Of a stretch of 11,316 bases of DNA, positions 1 through 9,766 are shown in pieces. The stretch's first letter is position 1. Each line of letters starts with the position of its first letter. Source of the stretch: Sphingobacteriales bacterium (GTDB lineage Bacteria; Bacteroidota; Bacteroidia; Chitinophagales; Chitinophagaceae); assembly GCA_024640385.1 (NCBI GenBank), contig JAHEFC010000095.1, positions 1 to 11,316 on the forward strand, in the 5' to 3' direction. The notes under the pieces are model-generated. The model was not told the origin of the DNA and did not search any database. It saw nothing but the letters and a program-made list of their open reading frames with translations. Position numbers and translations under genes: made by a program.

Positions 1-644
1 AGGTTCCAGAAAAACTTTTTTTCAGGAAGAAAGCCCATCCATTTAACACCGTCGGCAAGTATGGGTATTACGTCCAGGGCCATCATTCTTTCAAATCCCC
101 ACCCGAAATAACCATTCATGACTTTATTGAGTGAGTAACCCTCCTTTGTTCTACCTACAAAGAATATGCTTTTGATTTCCGGAACATGAATAGTCAGGCC
201 CGTCTCCCTCACCAGCCAACTCTCCTGGGTTGCATCGTACATAAGACCAACCTTCCAACTGATGGTACGCCTGGTTTTAAACTGGCCACTGGCGATCAAC
301 CTGAAATCGCGGACTTTGAATTTCGTCTCTAACGGCGTACCAAGTGAGTCCATCTGCTTCCGACTATTTTCGTCAGGGGCAAATGCGGCAAAATCGTAAA
401 GGAATCCACCTCCAAATTTAAATGTGGTCAATCTCCCATTGAATAGTCTCCATCGTTTATCCCTCCATTTTAATCTGGAAGAATCTGATTTGACTACTTC
501 CAGTTCCTCACCTTGTGTACCATCAGGTATCAGATCCTTTTCCTGGCCTTGTAACCCAATGGTAAAAAGAAGAAAAACTGCTGACAGCATAAACGGCAGG
601 ATGGTTCCACCCTGCCGTTTTGCTATAATAACCACTTTATTCAT
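1..644 (-). CDS. Phosphate-selective porin O/P-like outer-membrane protein (3' part outside window)
   Basis: The frame stays open from an ATG at 644 to the window edge, giving the first 214 residues of a longer protein; members of this family are usually about 400 residues or more. Residues 1-33 look like a signal peptide: Lys9/Arg10, a hydrophobic stretch at 14-31, then a likely cut before Gln34. The rest is rich in alternating beta-strand patterns. The segment around residues 163-183 (VGRTKEGYSL and following) and the stretch ending in GVKWMGF resemble the Porin_O_P family of trimeric outer-membrane anion channels; this is a recognition by pattern, not a search. The gene lies 25 bases after the asparaginase gene, so it is probably the last gene of the asparagine/aspartate unit and may admit acidic amino acids or dicarboxylates (inference). 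A second possible start is ATG at 590 (Met19), which would place the 591-620 hairpin upstream of the gene; 644 is preferred because it supplies the positively charged n-region. Confidence 0.75.
   Translation of the reverse strand, partial: MNKVVIIAKRQGGTILPFMLSAVFLLFTIGLQGQEKDLIPDGTQGEELEVVKSDSSRLKWRDKRWRLFNGRLTTFKFGGGFLYDFAAFAPDENSRKQMDSLGTPLETKFKVRDFRLIASGQFKTRRTISWKVGLMYDATQESWLVRETGLTIHVPEIKSIFFVGRTKEGYSLNKVMNGYFGWGFERMMALDVIPILADGVKWMGFLPEKKFFWN
591..620 (-). promoter_or_regulatory. Strong hairpin inside the porin 5' end (possible attenuator)
   Basis: Read on the minus strand, AAACGGCAGG is matched by CCTGCCGTTT. The stem extends inward to 14 pairs, including one G-U pair, with only two unpaired bases at the tip. 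The A-flanked and T-flanked arms resemble a Rho-independent terminator. Codon 19 (ATG, 590-588) follows directly. It could terminate or attenuate transcription after the asparaginase gene, slow translation of the porin signal peptide, or mask the alternative start. The hairpin is seen directly; its role is inference. Confidence 0.5.
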
Positions 645-669
645 AACACCTCATTATAGCCACTTGCGG

Positions 670-1737
670 TCAATAGTCCATGAAGATCTTCTGAACTTCA
701 TCAAGCTTTCTTGGCTTCAGCAATGCCACTGACAACAATACCCTTGATTTCTGCGGATTCAGATTATAGGATGCCACCAGACCTAACTCATCATCATTGC
801 ATTCTACATTGCGGCCTACCGTACCTGTAGCCACACGTGTGCTGCGCACTACGATCACTCCTTTCTTACTGGCTCTTGAACAGGCGTCCAGTGCTGCTTT
901 TGGCATGTTGCCATTACCTACACCGGCAATCACAATACCTTTTGCGCCACGTTCCACAGATGCATCGATAAGATCAGCTGGCATATCAACATCAGCATAT
1001 ATAATATCAACGCGGGGAAGTTTAGTTACACCTTCAACAGAAAATTCTGACTTGAGTCCGAATTTCTGGTCAGGATAACGATAATAATCATTTACGCCAT
1101 AGGCTGTTGTACCGATAAGTCCGCGTATGGGCGACATGAAAGTCTGAACAGCGGTAGTGCTGACCTTGGTGAGCGTTTGTGCAGAATGGATCCAGTCGTT
1201 CATCACCAGCAGCACACCCCTGCCCTTTGCATTTGGATCAGCAGCTACAGCAACGCCATTATAAAGATTAAGCGGCCCGTCAGCGCTGATCGCTGTGGAA
1301 GGACGCATTGAACCAACCAGCACAACCGGCATATCAGTTTTAACCACCAGGTTCAGAAAATAAGCAGTTTCTTCCATAGTGTCAGTACCATGTGTGATCA
1401 CTACTCCATTGGTTGCTTTCGCTGCAGCCAACTCGTTGATCCTTTTTGCGAGTTTGAGCATGATCTCAAAACTCATGTCCTGGGAACCCACATTGGATAT
1501 TTGCTCACCCTTGATAGTGGCAAGCTTCATTACATCAGGAACTGCATTGAGCATGGCATCAATGGTGACCTGGCCCGAAGTATAGCCCGATTGAACGCCT
1601 GAACCTGCTGCACCGGCAATGGTGCCACCTGTTGCCAGTATAACAACGTTTGGTTTGGTCTGTGACATGGCAGCCATGCCTGCTACAACCAAAAAGATCG
1701 TCAGTACGCTTCGAATATTCATTGAATTCTTTTTCAT
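670..1737 (-). CDS. ansB: Type II (periplasmic) L-asparaginase
   Basis: The product hydrolyses L-asparagine to L-aspartate and ammonia. It has 355 residues, normal for the family. Residues 1-25 form a signal peptide (lysines, then a hydrophobic core, cut near MAAMSQ), so the enzyme should be periplasmic. The catalytic landmarks of bacterial type II enzymes are all visible: ATGGTIAG with nucleophile Thr39, the flexible-loop Tyr52 in GYTSGQV, Ser85 in the GSQDM motif, Thr118-Asp119 in THGTDTMEET, and Lys191 in the TLTKVSTT stretch. The gene starts 32 bases after the full-length aspA frame and ends 25 bases before the porin, so co-transcription is likely. A second ATG six codons in would give a slightly shorter signal peptide. 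It ends in TGA, which matters for reading the internal TGA of its neighbour. Substrate preference for asparagine over glutamine is inferred from neighbouring aspA. Confidence 0.95.
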   Translation of the reverse strand: MKKNSMNIRSVLTIFLVVAGMAAMSQTKPNVVILATGGTIAGAAGSGVQSGYTSGQVTIDAMLNAVPDVMKLATIKGEQISNVGSQDMSFEIMLKLAKRINELAAAKATNGVVITHGTDTMEETAYFLNLVVKTDMPVVLVGSMRPSTAISADGPLNLYNGVAVAADPNAKGRGVLLVMNDWIHSAQTLTKVSTTAVQTFMSPIRGLIGTTAYGVNDYYRYPDQKFGLKSEFSVEGVTKLPRVDIIYADVDMPADLIDASVERGAKGIVIAGVGNGNMPKAALDACSRASKKGVIVVRSTRVATGTVGRNVECNDDELGLVASYNLNPQKSRVLLSVALLKPRKLDEVQKIFMDY

Positions 1738-1910
1738 GATCGGTCAATTAAATTTGTGTTGGTTTATATTTATTTCTGGCCTGTCATTGCCTTGGGATCC
1801 AGTAATTTTTTGATCTGGTCTTCAGTCAGCAGTTTCTTTTCACGGATCAGTTCAATGATGCCCTTGCCGGACTGCAGTGCTTCCTTAGCCAGCTCAGTTG
1901 TTTTTTCATA

Positions 1911-1913
1911 TCA
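1911..1913 (-). other. Premature TGA codon in aspA (expected GGA, glycine)
   Basis: The codon sits between ALNPVL and YEKTTE, where the family has a conserved glycine (N-P-x-x-G). A single G-to-T change of GGA would create it. No base is gained or lost, because the frame continues unbroken to a family-typical C-terminus. Confidence 0.85.
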
Positions 1914-3161
1914 CAGTACCGGGTTCAGTGCAGTCACTATCCCCACACTTCTTTCAATATACCGGTTAAGCACATCTTTATTGGCTGTTATGCCATCAAT
2001 ACATTGCTTACGGAATAAAGGCAGGGATTTAAAGAATAGCCCCTGTGATTCCATAATGGCAATGGCTTCCACCGGTTCAAATGCATTCAGCTGAAGCAGG
2101 CCTGAATGTGCTGCCAGGGTAACGGTAACGTCATTACCGATCACTTTAAAACAGATCTCATTCATCAGTTCAGGCATCACCGGGTTAACTTTTCCCGGCA
2201 TGATGGATGAACCCGGCTGCAGGGCAGGAAGATTGATCTCAAAGATACCTGTGCGCGGACCGGAAGCCAGGAAGATCAGGTCACCACTGATTTTAGACAG
2301 GGTGATCGCAAGGCTTTTCAATGCTGATGAATACACCACAAATCCCTGCTGGCTGCTGGTAGCGGCGATCAGGTCCTTGCTCATGATGATAGGCTTGCCC
2401 ATGATCTTTGCAAGATGCACGGCACATTTCTCTGCATAACCCGGCGAAGCAGTTATCCCGGTTCCAATTGCTGTTGCTCCCATGTTCTGCTCATACAGGA
2501 AAGTTTCTGCTTTACGTAAAGCAGTGATCTCTGCATCAAGCTGGTTCGCAAATGCATGGAATTCCTGACCAAGGGTCATAGGCACAGCATCCTGGCCTTC
2601 TGTGCGTCCCATTTTCAGGATATCCTTGAACTCCTCGCCTTTCTGATGCAGGGATTTTGATAATTCTACTGCTTCTTTCACCAGTTTGTCGTTATGCAGG
2701 ATCAGGGCGATCTTGATGGCAGTCGGGTATACGTCATTGGTTGACTGCCCCATATTCAGATCATCGTGCGGCTCCACATACTGGTATTCACCTTTCTTAT
2801 GGCCACTGAGTTCCAGTGCCACATTGGCCAGCACTTCGTTGGCATTCATATTTGCAGAAGTACCTGCGCCTCCCTGGTACAGGTCAACCAGGAACTGGTC
2901 GTGGTATTTACCTTCCATCACGGCCTGGCAGGCTTTTTCGATGGCAGCCAGTTTCTCTTTGCTCAGTCTGCCGTCTTCAGCATTGGCCCGGGCGGCAGCC
3001 AGTTTCACGATGGCATAGGCCTTGACATAATCGGGATAGAATTTCGTTGTTACTCCACTTACCTGGAAATTCTCCAGGGCCCTGGCTGTTTGAACACCAT
3101 AATATGCATCTGCCGGGATCTTTTTTTCTCCCAACAGGTCTTTCTCCGTCCTGAATTGCTG

Positions 3162-3224
3162 AGCTGCAGCTGTACCGGTAATGAAGCTCAGCAAAACGAA
3201 CATTATAGATCTTGAATTTTTCAC
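3162..3224 (-). other. Signal peptide of the aspartase
   Basis: Residues 1-21 have a short charged start (Lys2, Arg5), a hydrophobic core (IMFVLLSFITG) and an Ala-Ala-Ala end before Gln22. The residues that align with the start of E. coli AspA (RTEKDLLGEKKIPADAYYG) begin only at about residue 25, so the hydrophobic stretch is an added export signal. The absence of a Cys after the core argues against a lipoprotein. Confidence 0.8.
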
Positions 3225-3242
3225 TTTGTTATATTTTAAGCA

Positions 3243-4598
3243 TTATAAAAGAATTTTCTGGAGAAGCAGCCCTGCCAGCACTGAAGCAATGGTGGTAACA
3301 ATGCCGGGCAGCATAAAACTATGATTGAGTACATATTTCCCTATCCTGGTGGTACCCGTTCTGTCGAACTGAATGGCTGTCAGCAGGGTTGGATATCCGG
3401 GCACAAAAAAATGCCCGTTCACTGCGGGGAAGATCCCAACCAGGTATGCCGGAGGAAGGCCTAATGCCAGCCCAAGCGGCATCAGGGCCTTAGTAGTTGC
3501 AGCCTGGCTAAACAGAAGGATGCTCAGGGTGAACAAGGCTACTGCAAAAGACCATGGGTAGCTGGTGACCATTTCGCCCAAACTGGTTTTGATCACTGTG
3601 TAATTGTTATCCATGAACGTACTGCTCATCCATACCACACCAAAAACGGCGATGGTGGCCTGCCCTGCGGATGCGAACAAACTTGCTTTTGTTACCTGCG
3701 CAGCCGTGGTTTTACAGAATAAGATGATAAAGCCCGCCGACGCCAGCATGATCATCATGATCATGGATGGCATTTGCACCTGACCGGAGGCGTTCACTGC
3801 AAAATTAGGTGCAAACCCTTCCATATCGCCGAACGAGGGAAGCAAAGCAGGGAATGAACCCAGGACTACAACAAGCAACACTGCAATACCGAATATGATC
3901 ACAGAAGGGATTGCTCCTTCTTTGAGTTTCAATTCTCCACCGGATCCACCTTCTTCCATACTCTTCGCAAATACAGGATCTTTCATGCGCTCCAGGAATT
4001 CAGGATCTTCTGACAGTTCCTTGCCTCTTTTCAATACGAAAAGCACACCTACGATCACACCAAAAAGTGTGGCCGGGATGCAAACCATGAGAATGTCTGC
4101 CAGTTTAACACCGCTTGCGCCCAATACGGTAAGAAGGGCTGCAGAAGCCGCAGAGACGGGGCTTGCCGTGATTCCCATGTGGGCGGCGGTCACACTCATG
4201 CTCAAAGCTCTTTCGGGGCGGATCTTTTTCTTGATCGCCACTTCGGCAATAATGGGCATGATAGAATAAGAAATGTGAGCAGTACCCGCGAACAAAGTGA
4301 AAAAATAGGTTACCAGGGGCCCCAATATCGTAATTTGTTCCGGCCTGCTTCTTAATAATTTACCAGCCAGGTTGACCAGGTAATCCATGCCACCGGCCGC
4401 CTGTAACGCTGCGGCAGCAGTGACTACACTGAGAATGATCAGCATCACTTCCAATGGGGGGTCGGATGGTTTCAACCGGAAAATAAACAAGAGAATCAGT
4501 AATCCTATCATTCCCATAACACCCAGTCCAATACCAGACATTCTCGCTCCGATGAATATACAAACCAATAATACCAGGAGTTCAAGAGCAATAACCAT
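3243..4598 (-). CDS. dcuB: C4-dicarboxylate transporter, DcuA/DcuB family (DcuB-like)
   Basis: A 451-residue inner-membrane carrier made almost entirely of hydrophobic segments. In E. coli, DcuB exchanges external fumarate, malate or aspartate for succinate; the substrates here are inferred. The N-terminal part (IGARMSGIGLG, LKPSDPPLEVMLII, ALQAAGGMDYL), the central IRPERALSM and ITASPVSAA motifs, and the C-terminal FDRTGTTRIG followed by NHSFMLPG match the Dcu family; several of these phrases are closer to DcuB than to DcuA. A charged soluble loop lies near residues 195-225. It is the first gene of the minus-strand unit, followed 18 bases later by aspA, a pairing also seen in other bacteria. 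The ATG at 4598 is the first start in frame with the family N-terminus; no Shine-Dalgarno is visible, which is common in Bacteroidota. E. coli dcuB is an anaerobic gene, but nothing in this window shows oxygen control. Confidence 0.93.
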   Translation of the reverse strand: MVIALELLVLLVCIFIGARMSGIGLGVMGMIGLLILLFIFRLKPSDPPLEVMLIILSVVTAAAALQAAGGMDYLVNLAGKLLRSRPEQITILGPLVTYFFTLFAGTAHISYSIMPIIAEVAIKKKIRPERALSMSVTAAHMGITASPVSAASAALLTVLGASGVKLADILMVCIPATLFGVIVGVLFVLKRGKELSEDPEFLERMKDPVFAKSMEEGGSGGELKLKEGAIPSVIIFGIAVLLVVVLGSFPALLPSFGDMEGFAPNFAVNASGQVQMPSMIMMIMLASAGFIILFCKTTAAQVTKASLFASAGQATIAVFGVVWMSSTFMDNNYTVIKTSLGEMVTSYPWSFAVALFTLSILLFSQAATTKALMPLGLALGLPPAYLVGIFPAVNGHFFVPGYPTLLTAIQFDRTGTTRIGKYVLNHSFMLPGIVTTIASVLAGLLLQKILL

Positions 4599-6928: not shown

Positions 6929-6969
6929 GCAAGTTGCAGGTTGCAAATAATGTATTCTGCAACCTGTAA
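6929..6969. repeat. GCAGGTT-type repeat forming an inverted pair upstream of the aldo/keto reductase
   Basis: The left side reads as near-tandem heptamers (GCAAGTT, GCAGGTT, then GCAAATA). TTGCAGGTTGCA at 6934-6945 is the inverse of TGCAACCTGTAA at 6958-6969 with one G-T pair, around a 12-base loop. The minus-strand reading of 6957-6969, TTACAGGTTGCAG, recurs exactly at 8751-8763. It lies between the terminator and the start at 7002, so it would be in the promoter or leader of that gene. Confidence 0.7.
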
Positions 6970-7001
6970 ATGGTAACTTTACATTCACCGATCGTCTTAA
7001 C

Positions 7002-7877
7002 ATGAACTTTTCACCTGTTATTGCAGGCTGCATGAATTGGGGCCAATGGGGCGCTAAATTCAATACGCAACAATATCTTACTGCCATCAAAGAATGCCTG
7101 GAGCTGGGCGTCGCATGGTTTGATCATGCTGATATCTATGGCCATTACACTACCGAAGAAGAATTCGGAACAGCACTGAAAATAGAGCCTGGCCTTCGGT
7201 TGAACATGAAGCTGATCACTAAGTGCGGCATCAAAATGGTGACGCCTCACCGCCCGGACCACAAAATAAAATCTTACGACACCAGCAGCGAACACATTAT
7301 TGGTTCTGCTGAGCGGTCTTTATCGAATTTACGAACTGATCATATCGATCTTCTGCTGATCCATCGTCCCGACCCGATGATGGATGCTTCTGAGATCGCA
7401 GAGGCCATAGATAAACTAAAAACCCAGGGGAAGGTTCTGCATTTCGGAGTATCCAATTTTCTCCCTCACCACATGTCTCTGCTGAGGCCCGTAATCAAAG
7501 TTGAGGCGAACCAGTTTGAATTCTCTGCATTCCATACCACACCATTGCTTGACGGCACCGCCGAATATTGCCAGCAACACGGGATCGCATGCATGGCCTG
7601 GTCGCCACTTGGGGGAGGTGCACTTACTTCAGAAGAAAAAACTGACCAGGCCAGGCGTGTAATAGCCGTTGCTGAATTACTGGGAGAAGATCTTGGTCTG
7701 AGTATAGACCAGGTGTTGCTGGCATGGTTGTTTTCACACCCCATGAGGATAGTGCCCGTGCTGGGTACCACTAAAACAGCCCGCATTAGAGCCGCTGTTG
7801 AAATATCAAAACTCAGATTATCGAGGGAGCAGTGGTTCATGGTGTATAGGGCGTTTTTGGGGAAAGAAATAGCTTGA
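7002..7877 (+). CDS. Aldo/keto reductase, YdhF-like oxidoreductase
   Basis: An NAD(P)H-dependent oxidoreductase of the aldo/keto reductase superfamily (291 residues, TIM barrel, cytoplasmic, no signal peptide). The catalytic tetrad is visible: Asp41 and Tyr46 in DHADIYG, Lys74 in ITKCG and His121 in LLIHRPDP. Further family landmarks are the SAERSLSNL-DHIDLLLIH block, GKVLHFGVSNF (155-165 region), the NQFEFS strand and the MAWSPLGGGAL stretch near the cofactor site. The wording of several blocks (DHADIYG, SKCGI/TKCGI, LLIHRPDPLMDA) is closest to E. coli YdhF; its physiological substrate is not known to me, so no substrate is proposed. The start at 7002 gives the expected short N-terminus. No Shine-Dalgarno is seen. 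The TGA stop overlaps the first bases of the next repeat. Confidence 0.93.
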   Translation: MNFSPVIAGCMNWGQWGAKFNTQQYLTAIKECLELGVAWFDHADIYGHYTTEEEFGTALKIEPGLRLNMKLITKCGIKMVTPHRPDHKIKSYDTSSEHIIGSAERSLSNLRTDHIDLLLIHRPDPMMDASEIAEAIDKLKTQGKVLHFGVSNFLPHHMSLLRPVIKVEANQFEFSAFHTTPLLDGTAEYCQQHGIACMAWSPLGGGALTSEEKTDQARRVIAVAELLGEDLGLSIDQVLLAWLFSHPMRIVPVLGTTKTARIRAAVEISKLRLSREQWFMVYRAFLGKEIA

Positions 7878-7951
7878 GGCGAAAGGCGAAAGGCAAAGCT
7901 TTTGCAAAATGAAACAATATACCTGTCGCCTCTCGCCTATTACCTACCGCC
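7876..7951. repeat. GGCGAAA heptamer repeat with an inverted partner
   Basis: GGCGAAA occurs twice in tandem followed by GGC (7878-7894), starting at the stop codon of the aldo/keto reductase. About 36 bases on, TCGCCTCTCGCCT (7926-7938) is the inverse of AGGCGAAAGGCGA (7877-7889) with a single mismatch, and further degenerate units (ACCTACCGCC) run to 7951. The transcript could fold into a long hairpin before the rhomboid gene. The repeat structure is seen; its role as terminator, processing site or mobile repeat is open. Confidence 0.75.
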
Positions 7952-7984
7952 TTAATACTTAATTTTAAAGCTAAACCACTGCCT

Positions 7985-8746
7985 ATGTTCCCCATCAGTG
8001 ATGATAATTCAGACCGGCATCTTACACCCTATGTCAATTATATCTTCATCGCGATAAACTTTTTTGTATTCATATTCCTGCAGGGAATGGGAACCAATTA
8101 TTTATTCACTTATGCGTTTTCAACCGTTCCTGCGGAAATTCTTACCGGAACTGATATTGTTACTGCGGGGGAAATTATCCGCGATCCCAATACCGGGCAA
8201 ACCTTCCAGTTACCGGGATTACAGGTCACCCCTATCCATCCCTGGCTCACAATCATTACCTCCATGTTCATGCACGGCGGATGGGGGCATATTTTGGGCA
8301 ATATGCTTTTCCTATGGATATTCGGAGACAATATTGAGAACAGGTTGGGACATTCCAGATATTTCACTTTTTATATGGTCTGCGGCATACTGGCGTCATT
8401 AAGCCATGTGTTCTTAACTGCTTTCCTGGGCCAAAATACCGAGATTCCCAGTCTTGGTGCTTCAGGCGCTATTTCAGGTGTAATGGGAGGATATCTGATC
8501 CTTTTCCCGCGCCGTAAGGTGAATGTATTGCTGATCAGATTTATTGTTGCCGTCCCCGCTATTGTAGCACTGGGAATGTGGATCCTGTTCCAGATCATCA
8601 GTGGCATGGGTATGTTGGGTGGCCAGTCAGATGGTGTTGCCTACGCCGCACATATTGGAGGTTTTCTGGCTGGCATGTTATTGGTCAAACTGTTTGACCG
8701 GGGGCAGGGGTTTGTTCGTGACGGCCTTCTTAGGAGAGACAGATAG
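7985..8746 (+). CDS. Rhomboid family intramembrane serine protease
   Basis: An inner-membrane protease that cleaves transmembrane segments. It has 253 residues with about six membrane helices, the first at 16-33. The family motifs are complete: the HGGWGHILGNMLFLWIFGD block (97-115) with oxyanion Asn106, nucleophile Ser160 in LGASGAISG, the GxxxG-type packing nearby (GVMGG), and general-base His223 in YAAHIGGFLAG. The loop between helix 1 and helix 2 is long (about 45-85) with a polar DPNTGQTF stretch, as in several Bacteroidota homologues. The C-terminus is a short basic cytosolic tail ending in LLRRDR. The ATG at 7985 fits the helix-1 position. It is spaced 107 bases after the aldo/keto reductase, with the GGCGAAA repeat between, so co-transcription is uncertain. 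Its natural substrate cannot be told from the sequence. Confidence 0.95.
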   Translation: MFPISDDNSDRHLTPYVNYIFIAINFFVFIFLQGMGTNYLFTYAFSTVPAEILTGTDIVTAGEIIRDPNTGQTFQLPGLQVTPIHPWLTIITSMFMHGGWGHILGNMLFLWIFGDNIENRLGHSRYFTFYMVCGILASLSHVFLTAFLGQNTEIPSLGASGAISGVMGGYLILFPRRKVNVLLIRFIVAVPAIVALGMWILFQIISGMGMLGGQSDGVAYAAHIGGFLAGMLLVKLFDRGQGFVRDGLLRRDR

Positions 8747-8782: not shown

Positions 8783-9766
8783 TTATTGAAGCAAGTTTTT
8801 GAATCCAACTGTAGATGTATCTTTTACTTTTCCGTCTTTGTCCCGGTAAATAATATAAGCTTCGAGATCTGTTCTCGTTTTCAAATATTTCATCGCCTTC
8901 TCTACCCCCATCACATACAAGGCATTGTCCCAGGCATCTGCCTTCATGGCTTCTGACGTTACCACAGTTACTGCAATGATACCGTTGTCGACAGGCCTCC
9001 CTTTTATCGGATCAATTACATGCGAATACATTTTTCCGCCTGCATTGAAATAATTCCTGTAGTTACCTGAGGTAGTCACCGATGCATCCCGCAAACCGAT
9101 CACCTGTTGCACCGGATGCCAGTCGCCCGCCAATACATCAGGCGATTCAACACCTATTCGCCATGGTCCCTTGTCGGGATGTTCACCTTTGACCCGGATC
9201 TCGCCACCCAATTCCACCATCAACTGATTAATTCCGTGCCTGCTCAAAAAATCTGTAACCAGGTCCACCGTATACCCCTGTGCTATCCCGTTGCAGTCTA
9301 CCTTTATTCCTTTTTTTAAAGCGATCAGGCTATCCCCTTTCACCAGCAGGTATCTACTACCGGTTATGGATAGTTGCTTTTTCACCCGTTCTGATGAAGG
9401 AATATGCTGATGCCGAACCATGCCGAATCCCCAGAGTTCTGTCAATCCATCCGTAGTTATGTCAAAACATCCGTTTGATTCCCTGAAGCACAACAGCGAT
9501 TCATGGATAACATTCTGCATATGCCCATCCATCTTCACCCGGCCTTCCCTGTTGAATATATTGATCAGGGAGGCCGGTTCATATAGTGAAAGAGACAGAT
9601 CTACAACACGGAATATACTGTCCAGTTCACTCTTTGTTACCTGTCCTTTTTCTCCCACATACTTCACACTATAACTGGTGCCTTGTGCAGCACCGGTTAT
9701 GACCTGGAAATCCGGGAATGCAGTTATGTGTAAATGAAGAAAAAACAATAATATTACCATATTCAC
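8783..9766 (-). CDS. apbE: ApbE-like FAD:protein FMN transferase
   Basis: ApbE enzymes split FAD and attach FMN covalently to a Thr or Ser of periplasmic or membrane redox proteins, using Mg2+. The 327-residue product begins with a short hydrophobic segment consistent with export. Visible landmarks are AAQGTSYSV (26-33), the [14 protein letters not shown] block (58-72), CFDITTDGL (100-108), [13 protein letters not shown] (156-168), [11 protein letters not shown] (184-194), [10 protein letters not shown] (231-240), [12 protein letters not shown] (248-259) and the metal-binding region [12 protein letters not shown] (276-287) with Asp277. Salmonella ApbE has Thr where this has Asn281, so metal binding may differ slightly. 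The start is GTG at 9766, overlapping the TGA of the upstream gene, or ATG at 9760 two bases after it; both imply translational coupling. The flavinylated partner is not evident in the window. Confidence 0.93.

Follow-up and report, generated by a model that had tools for sequence, protein, structure and literature searches.

A putative periplasmic asparagine-to-fumarate operon of Bacteroidota with an exported aspartase-family lyase

Introduction

Aspartase (aspartate ammonia-lyase) is a textbook cytosolic enzyme. Why, then, does an aspartase-like gene in the draft genome of a Sphingobacteriales bacterium (Chitinophagaceae; GenBank assembly GCA_024640385.1) begin with an apparent signal peptide, and why does it lie in a row with genes for an asparaginase, a porin and a C4-dicarboxylate carrier? 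The window analysed here is the whole of contig JAHEFC010000095.1 (C84 in our numbering; 11,316 nt), one of 585 contigs in a 4.08 Mb assembly that is 94% complete. By comparing this locus with its relatives we conclude that the four genes probably constitute a periplasmic asparagine-to-fumarate operon, and that some soil and water bacteria appear to degrade asparagine fully to fumarate outside the inner membrane. Our searches of the open-access literature listed no paper on an exported or periplasmic aspartase or on such an operon; a single text match to a secreted aspartase came from a paper on Candida auris. If the proposal is true, it adds a periplasmic route of amino acid catabolism in which ammonium is released outside the cytoplasm and fumarate is fed inward, with a bearing on nitrogen release in soil and freshwater and on why these bacteria have Dcu-type carriers.

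Results and Discussion

Organization of the locus

The four genes occupy the minus strand in the order dcu, aspA, ansB and porin, the last being represented by its 5′ part, which runs off the contig end. Only 18 nt separate dcu from aspA and 25 nt separate ansB from the porin gene; the gap between aspA and ansB is 32 nt if counted from the position where aspA normally ends in this family (1770-1772). The genes, their strand and order, and the spacing between them agree with a preliminary description of this DNA, which had proposed an exported asparagine-to-fumarate pathway and had overlooked a TGA inside the aspA frame. The features are as follows.

3243..4598, minus strand: dcu, Dcu-family C4-dicarboxylate carrier, 451 amino acids, first gene of the operon (PF03605, 475 bits; TIGR00770)
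1911..3224, minus strand: aspA, exported-type aspartase (aspartate ammonia-lyase), GTG start, 437 amino acids to an in-frame stop (PF00206, 310 bits; PRK12273)
3162..3224, minus strand: signal peptide of aspA, 21 codons from the GTG start, predicted cleavage AAA/QQ (sequence and our own heuristic)
2598..2600, minus strand: aspA codon for Glu209, a signature of the exported clade (alignment)
1911..1913, minus strand: in-frame TGA in aspA, at a Gly site in relatives (alignment with relatives)
1770..1910, minus strand: continuation of the aspA frame, 46 codons and a TAA; the predicted protein loses the C-terminal FumaraseC_C domain (same residues as the end of the relative P0002)
670..1737, minus strand: ansB, type II (exported) L-asparaginase, 355 amino acids (PF00710, PF17763, TIGR00520)
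1663..1737, minus strand: signal peptide of ansB, 25 codons, predicted cleavage AMS/QT (sequence)
3..644, minus strand: outer-membrane porin, N-terminal 214 amino acids, open at the contig end (phmmer relatives of the Porin_O_P type)

The carrier and the asparaginase are each the only copy found in the genome (for ansB, the only full-length one). The Dcu protein scores 482.6 bits against TIGR00770 (cut-off 331). The asparaginase reaches 427.3 bits against TIGR00520 (cut-off 314.3) and has a signal peptide, which makes it a type II enzyme; it stays below the cut-off of the narrower L-asparaginase 2 equivalog PRK11096 (413 vs 506). The 214-residue porin fragment has no Pfam match of its own, and its phmmer matches are open reading frames (ORFs) beside exported aspA genes elsewhere, and the four full-length ones tested belong to PF07396 (Porin_O_P).

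Conserved gene neighbourhood

To survey the context of the exported-type lyase we used 80 named loci, the best 80 of 157, of which 28 are from Flavobacterium by their record titles. An ansB gene lies within 5 kb of the exported-type aspA in 76 of these 80, and the four loci without it (L098, L106, L109 and L110) have little contig on one side. For the main count we took the 61 loci in which aspA has a full 5 kb of flanking DNA in either direction; every one (61/61) contains ansB, on the same strand in 59. In L102 it adjoins a cytosolic paralogue on the opposite strand. The median gap between aspA and ansB is 32 nt. A porin of some kind, either DcaP (PF19577) or Porin_O_P (PF07396), is present in 57/61 loci, a Dcu carrier in 21, an SLC13-type carrier in 11, and either carrier in 27. 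Further neighbours are glutaminase (13 loci), amidohydrolase (8) and the aspartate exchanger AspT (3). With Flavobacterium excluded, 33 loci remain, among which ansB is found in 33, either carrier in 24 and a porin in 32.

The control consisted of all non-exported matches of a phylum sample of 296 genomes, taken with flanks of up to 6 kb; in 7 of its 41 cytosolic loci one flank is shorter than 5 kb. Among these 41, ansB lies within 5 kb in two (L156 and L192) and a porin in one (L206). When exported loci were gathered in the same way, five from the phylum sample and two from same-genus relatives, ansB was near in 7/7 vs 2/41 cytosolic (Fisher p 4.9e-7). An initial control of 25 chosen cytosolic loci gave ansB in 1/25. 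The 17 other homologues of the control set (8 of the GRTH type and nine untyped) have none of ten neighbour families nearby.

The E. coli AnsB is periplasmic, and together with the aspA-dcuA operon it supplies the same three steps of asparaginase, aspartase and Dcu carrier; unlike in E. coli, the window operon itself includes ansB and a porin gene. Another related system is L156 of genome G324, a dcu-aspA-ansB operon of the cytosolic type that has the same genes, the same tight spacing and an asparaginase with a signal peptide. It differs in that its aspartase has no signal peptide and carries a GRTQ motif, and in that its Dcu falls in a sister clade (see below).

Predicted export of the lyase and the asparaginase

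In Bacteroidetes, Gln immediately follows the signal peptidase site (the Q-rule), according to an excerpt of PMC5837995. In the window both aspA and ansB begin with Sec-type signal peptides with Gln at +1, and the lyase has the small residue at -1 typical of signal peptidase I (Sec/SPI) substrates. We assembled 90 rows of exported-type aspartases (84 distinct mature sequences, some genomes being entered twice). A hydrophobic stretch followed by a small residue and Gln is found in 89 of the 90, as compared with 2/29 cytosolic aspartases, the long fusion proteins L153 and L154, and 0/8 fumarase-like proteins. Among ansB relatives, 76/77 carry the small residue-Gln signature.

The Q-rule count is independent of a signal-peptide score, our own heuristic and not SignalP, which gave a similar picture: 76/82 exported-type ORFs have a signal-peptide-like start, and 0/3 cytosolic paralogues do. 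Six fail: L040, which shows no signal; L069, L071 and L088, which lie slightly below the hydrophobicity cut-off; and L105 and L106, which fall to the charge rule. For ansB, 75/77 pass, one further row having been excluded for want of the motif. The L040 enzyme (6962-8419), an exported-type aspartase with the Glu signature, may have lost export or may reflect a draft-genome error.

A distinct clade of aspartase-family lyases

On a tree of 97 rows, built from 127 after 30 exported-type rows were omitted as near-copies or duplicates, the 60 exported-type rows form a single clade with a Shimodaira-Hasegawa-like approximate likelihood ratio test (SH-aLRT) support of 100. The clade takes in bins labelled Ignavibacteriota, Calditrichota and Acidobacteriota. 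L106, L107 and L109, from bins named Pyrinomonadaceae, Calditrichaceae and Acidobacteria, cluster with L110, a placement that may reflect transfer or mis-binning.

The exported lyase has the marks of its superfamily, namely the Lyase_1 domain (PF00206) and the catalytic residues (two SS-loop serines, Lys, Asn and Thr), which are kept in 90/90 exported-type rows. Against the aspartate ammonia-lyase subfamily PRK12273 (cut-off 510 bits) the window protein scores 610 and its intact relative P0002 659.5, the latter vs 451 for the fumarase model fumC_II. An AlphaFold model of P0002 is of middling confidence (predicted local distance difference test, pLDDT, 72.9), offers no pocket detail and by Foldseek has the aspartase/fumarase fold, with aspartases among the best matches. 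Fumarase was considered as an identity and rejected, since the protein matches fumarase models with lower scores and since it is another homologue in this genome, on contig C139, that has the GRTH motif.

Three active-site positions set the exported type apart. The residue corresponding to Gln191 of E. coli AspA is Glu (Glu209) in 90/90 exported-type rows, Gln in 29/29 cytosolic rows and His in 8/8 fumarase-like rows; His153 and Ile317 are likewise fixed in 90/90, where the cytosolic counterparts are Asn and Arg in 29/29. The window lyase, predicted to be exported and carrying Glu209, differs in this from E. coli AspA, which has Gln191 and no export signal at its N-terminus. By these comparisons it is an aspartase-family enzyme of a separate subfamily, with aspartate as its presumed substrate, and it would give enzymologists an aspartase with an altered pocket to study.

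The proposed pathway

Gene order, export signals, the distinct clade, the conserved linkage and the catalytic residues are all read from sequence; we infer the substrate of the lyase, its direction, the acid moved by the carrier and the purpose of the route, which would be carbon use while nitrogen is shed. The porin would admit asparagine and aspartate across the outer membrane. The signal-peptide-bearing type II asparaginase would convert asparagine to aspartate and ammonia, and the exported lyase, likewise in the periplasm, would convert aspartate to fumarate and a second ammonia. Import of the C4-dicarboxylate would then fall to a Dcu carrier, or in other genomes to an SLC13-type carrier. 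At the level of the family, comparison gives good support to a predicted periplasmic route from asparagine through aspartate to fumarate; for the window's own four genes it is the probable reading. The preliminary description is supported in part: signal peptides are present on both enzymes of the window and near universal in the family, the asparaginase and porin linkage that it expected in related genomes is conserved, and carriers and porins are frequent neighbours. Its full dcuB-aspA-ansB-porin set does not extend to the carrier, which is near in less than half of the loci, and its pathway model needs reservations, in that the aspA of this window is interrupted and that aspartate is a presumed substrate, the two intact members tested scoring below the aspA equivalog cut-off.

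A more specific version can be put forward tentatively, at slightly under even chances: a hitherto undescribed exported ammonia-lyase clade, marked by Glu209, His153 and Ile317 and accompanied in most of the Dcu-bearing operons observed by its own branch of Dcu carriers tuned to fumarate, would shift the whole pathway to the periplasm, so that Bacteroidota and their relatives would discard two ammonia before the carbon enters the cytoplasm.

The in-frame stop in the window's aspA

The TGA at 1911-1913 sits where 119/119 other listed relatives carry Gly. After it the frame stays open for 46 more codons, up to the usual family end, and the 46 residues encoded there are identical to the last 46 of P0002, a relative with 94% identity. 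The FumaraseC_C domain (PF10415), which spans 430-482 in P0002 and belongs to the C-terminal part of the superfamily, is absent from the window protein owing to the stop, so the protein as predicted lacks it. The TGA may be a genuine mutation, in which case the route may be broken here, or it may be an assembly error. With aspA interrupted, the pathway outlined above may not operate in this strain. We also considered a variant genetic code as an explanation of the TGA and put it aside with no test across the genome.

The most probable of the alternatives is that aspA has been freshly broken in this strain, and that the operon now only yields periplasmic aspartate for uptake by its carrier or by others. 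We regard this as a serious possibility, if a minority one. It fits the stop at an invariant Gly site and the lost C-terminal domain, and no second aspartase was found in the 94% complete draft, whose remaining two aspA-type matches are a 38% fumarase-like protein (on C139) and a distant lyase. Yet the 46 codons past the stop keep the residues of P0002, so there is no visible decay, and a one-base error in a draft of 585 contigs would give an identical picture. Moreover, the solved structure of a 401-residue Bacillus aspartase chain (3r6y), a protease-treated form, indicates that the enzyme core can fold when the C-terminal domain is missing.

The carrier and the purpose of the route

The preliminary description had named the carrier DcuB, or DcuB-like. 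The window protein is equally distant from both E. coli homologues (40.9% identity to DcuA, 40.7% to DcuB; 41% each when rounded) and falls on a separate branch of the tree, so DcuB would be no more than a guess and that name was rejected. Dcu proteins at E 1e-60 occur in 4/296 phylum-sample genomes (the window genome, G225, G333 and G324), the first three of which have an exported aspartase; G324 has two Dcu genes, both beside cytosolic aspartases. On the Dcu tree, from which ORFs of 380 amino acids or less were excluded, 25 rows from exported-type operons, the window included, form one clade. Its sister clade holds 5 distinct genes, namely the two of G324, those of L072 and L105 (loci with both aspartase kinds) and that of L176. 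The tree hints that the carriers may differ in substrate. In Actinobacillus succinogenes, an excerpt of PMC10634366 likewise ties DcuA functionally to aspartate catabolism; there DcuA takes up aspartate itself, whereas in the window system deamination is predicted to precede import.

Could the operon chiefly supply fumarate as an electron acceptor at low oxygen, with the gain in carbon and nitrogen being secondary? The same excerpt (PMC10634366) has Dcu family members serving fumarate respiration, but the SLC13-type neighbour in 11/61 loci and the glutaminase in 13/61 fit general carbon and nitrogen use, and we consider this rather less likely to be the main purpose.

Substrate and location of the lyase

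A less probable alternative is that the exported lyase acts on another substrate. On this account the changed pocket (Glu209, His153 and Ile317) would accept a different amino acid or amide, and the asparaginase neighbourhood would reflect a shared transport system. By its GRT motif, rather than by an alignment containing AspB, we take Glu209 to stand at the place of His188 in AspB of Bacillus sp. YM55-1, a cytosolic enzyme (1j3u, 3r6v) that shares its fold and SS-loop motif with the exported lyase. An excerpt of PMC11744663 places that histidine in the carboxylate pocket and also ascribes to it an interaction with the amine group. The consistent difference from the cytosolic residues at all three positions, and the scores of the two intact members tested (P0002, 604.6 bits; L174, 628.4) against the aspA equivalog TIGR00839 (cut-off 681.2), are what one would expect if the substrate had changed; on the same model the window protein scores 561, and the cytosolic L156 (713.6) and E. 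coli AspA (915.4) lie above that cut-off. However, the remaining substrate-contact residues are unchanged in the exported type, aspartate ammonia-lyase is the best subfamily model and lies far above the fumarase models, and the linkage is to asparaginase, an aspartate-producing enzyme. We thus judge a different substrate improbable and keep to aspartate.

That the lyase is cytosolic, its N-terminal extension being a mis-called start or a membrane tail, seems very improbable: characterised aspartases are generally cytosolic and no signal peptide could be recognised in one exported-type member (L040), but within the mature proteins just 7% of A/G/S/C residues have Gln after them, far from the near-universal cleavage signature that led us to reject a start-site artefact, and the extension stops right before the residues where cytosolic enzymes begin.

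Distribution, physiology and points against the proposal

Several observations weigh against a general periplasmic route. The trait is patchy: with the exported type defined in the phylum sample by a score above 650 bits, a cut chosen by us, it occurs in 6/296 genomes, the window genome included, and in 2/25 genomes of the window's genus, several of which are incomplete (G019 belongs to this genus). No Dcu or SLC13 gene lies within 5 kb in 34/61 loci, 25 of them from Flavobacterium. Cytosolic loci with ansB near (L156, L192) or with Dcu near (L156, L206) exist. The Dcu of exported-type L176 falls in the sister clade, and those of L107, L111, L114 and L174 stand apart, beside E. coli DcuA on long branches. 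With its altered pocket and its scores below the aspA equivalog cut-off, the exported clade might not act on aspartate, and the lyase step of the window strain in particular is doubtful, its aspA being cut by the stop. A low cysteine count is weak evidence of export: exported-type rows have a mean of 4.1 cysteines and cytosolic aspartases 7.0, but fumarase-like rows are low too (4.6), so the count says little.

Cytosolic aspartate use also coexists with the exported type. In 18 genomes picked by us for a paralogue check, with a threshold of 430 bits for a second match, a cytosolic aspartase was also present in 6, and L072 and L105 are tandem pairs beside AspT. In the other 12 no aspartase besides the exported type was found, and among these is Flavihumibacter solisilvae, a cultured strain of the kind in which the pathway could be tested. 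Because aspartate can also be used by transamination, growth of this species on the two amino acids is support, not proof. An excerpt of its genome paper (PMC4575449) gives L-asparagine and L-aspartic acid among the sole carbon sources in Table 5, and assigns KIC93060 to asparaginase and KIC93059 to aspartate ammonia-lyase. These two are likely the genes of our locus L037.

Related loci and minor observations

In L072 (5564-8455) and L105 (5562-8455) cytosolic and exported aspartases stand in tandem, with AspT upstream and ansB and dcu downstream. Elsewhere in the window genome, contig C190 (L189; L190, 2557-7535) carries a cluster of genes for a DcaP porin, an amidohydrolase, a glutaminase whose start resembles a signal peptide, and a conserved protein (cluster 13, with no Pfam match in its relative). 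Four genes of the same kinds stand directly upstream of exported aspA in L036 and L078 and flank the operon in L093. According to an excerpt of PMC12338516, Acinetobacter requires DcaP porins to grow on certain di- and tricarboxylic acids. This wider set resembles a system for periplasmic deamidation and deamination, in which glutamine, asparagine and aspartate would shed nitrogen before import.

Within the window, scans for tRNA and Rfam families were both empty, and no match to the Bacteroidetes promoter consensus was found in a stretch of 202 nt that ends where dcu starts. The gene list also places a gene for an ApbE-type flavin transferase (PF02424) on the same contig, at 8783-9766 on the minus strand. 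Some cytosolic Bacteroidota aspartases are about 620 residues long (L146, 5551-7419; L151, 5989-7848), and this tested pair is fused to an N-terminal cyclic-nucleotide-binding domain (PF00027), which suggests a ligand-regulated aspartase; by length, L147, L152-L155, L158, L182, L192-L194 and L197 are similar.

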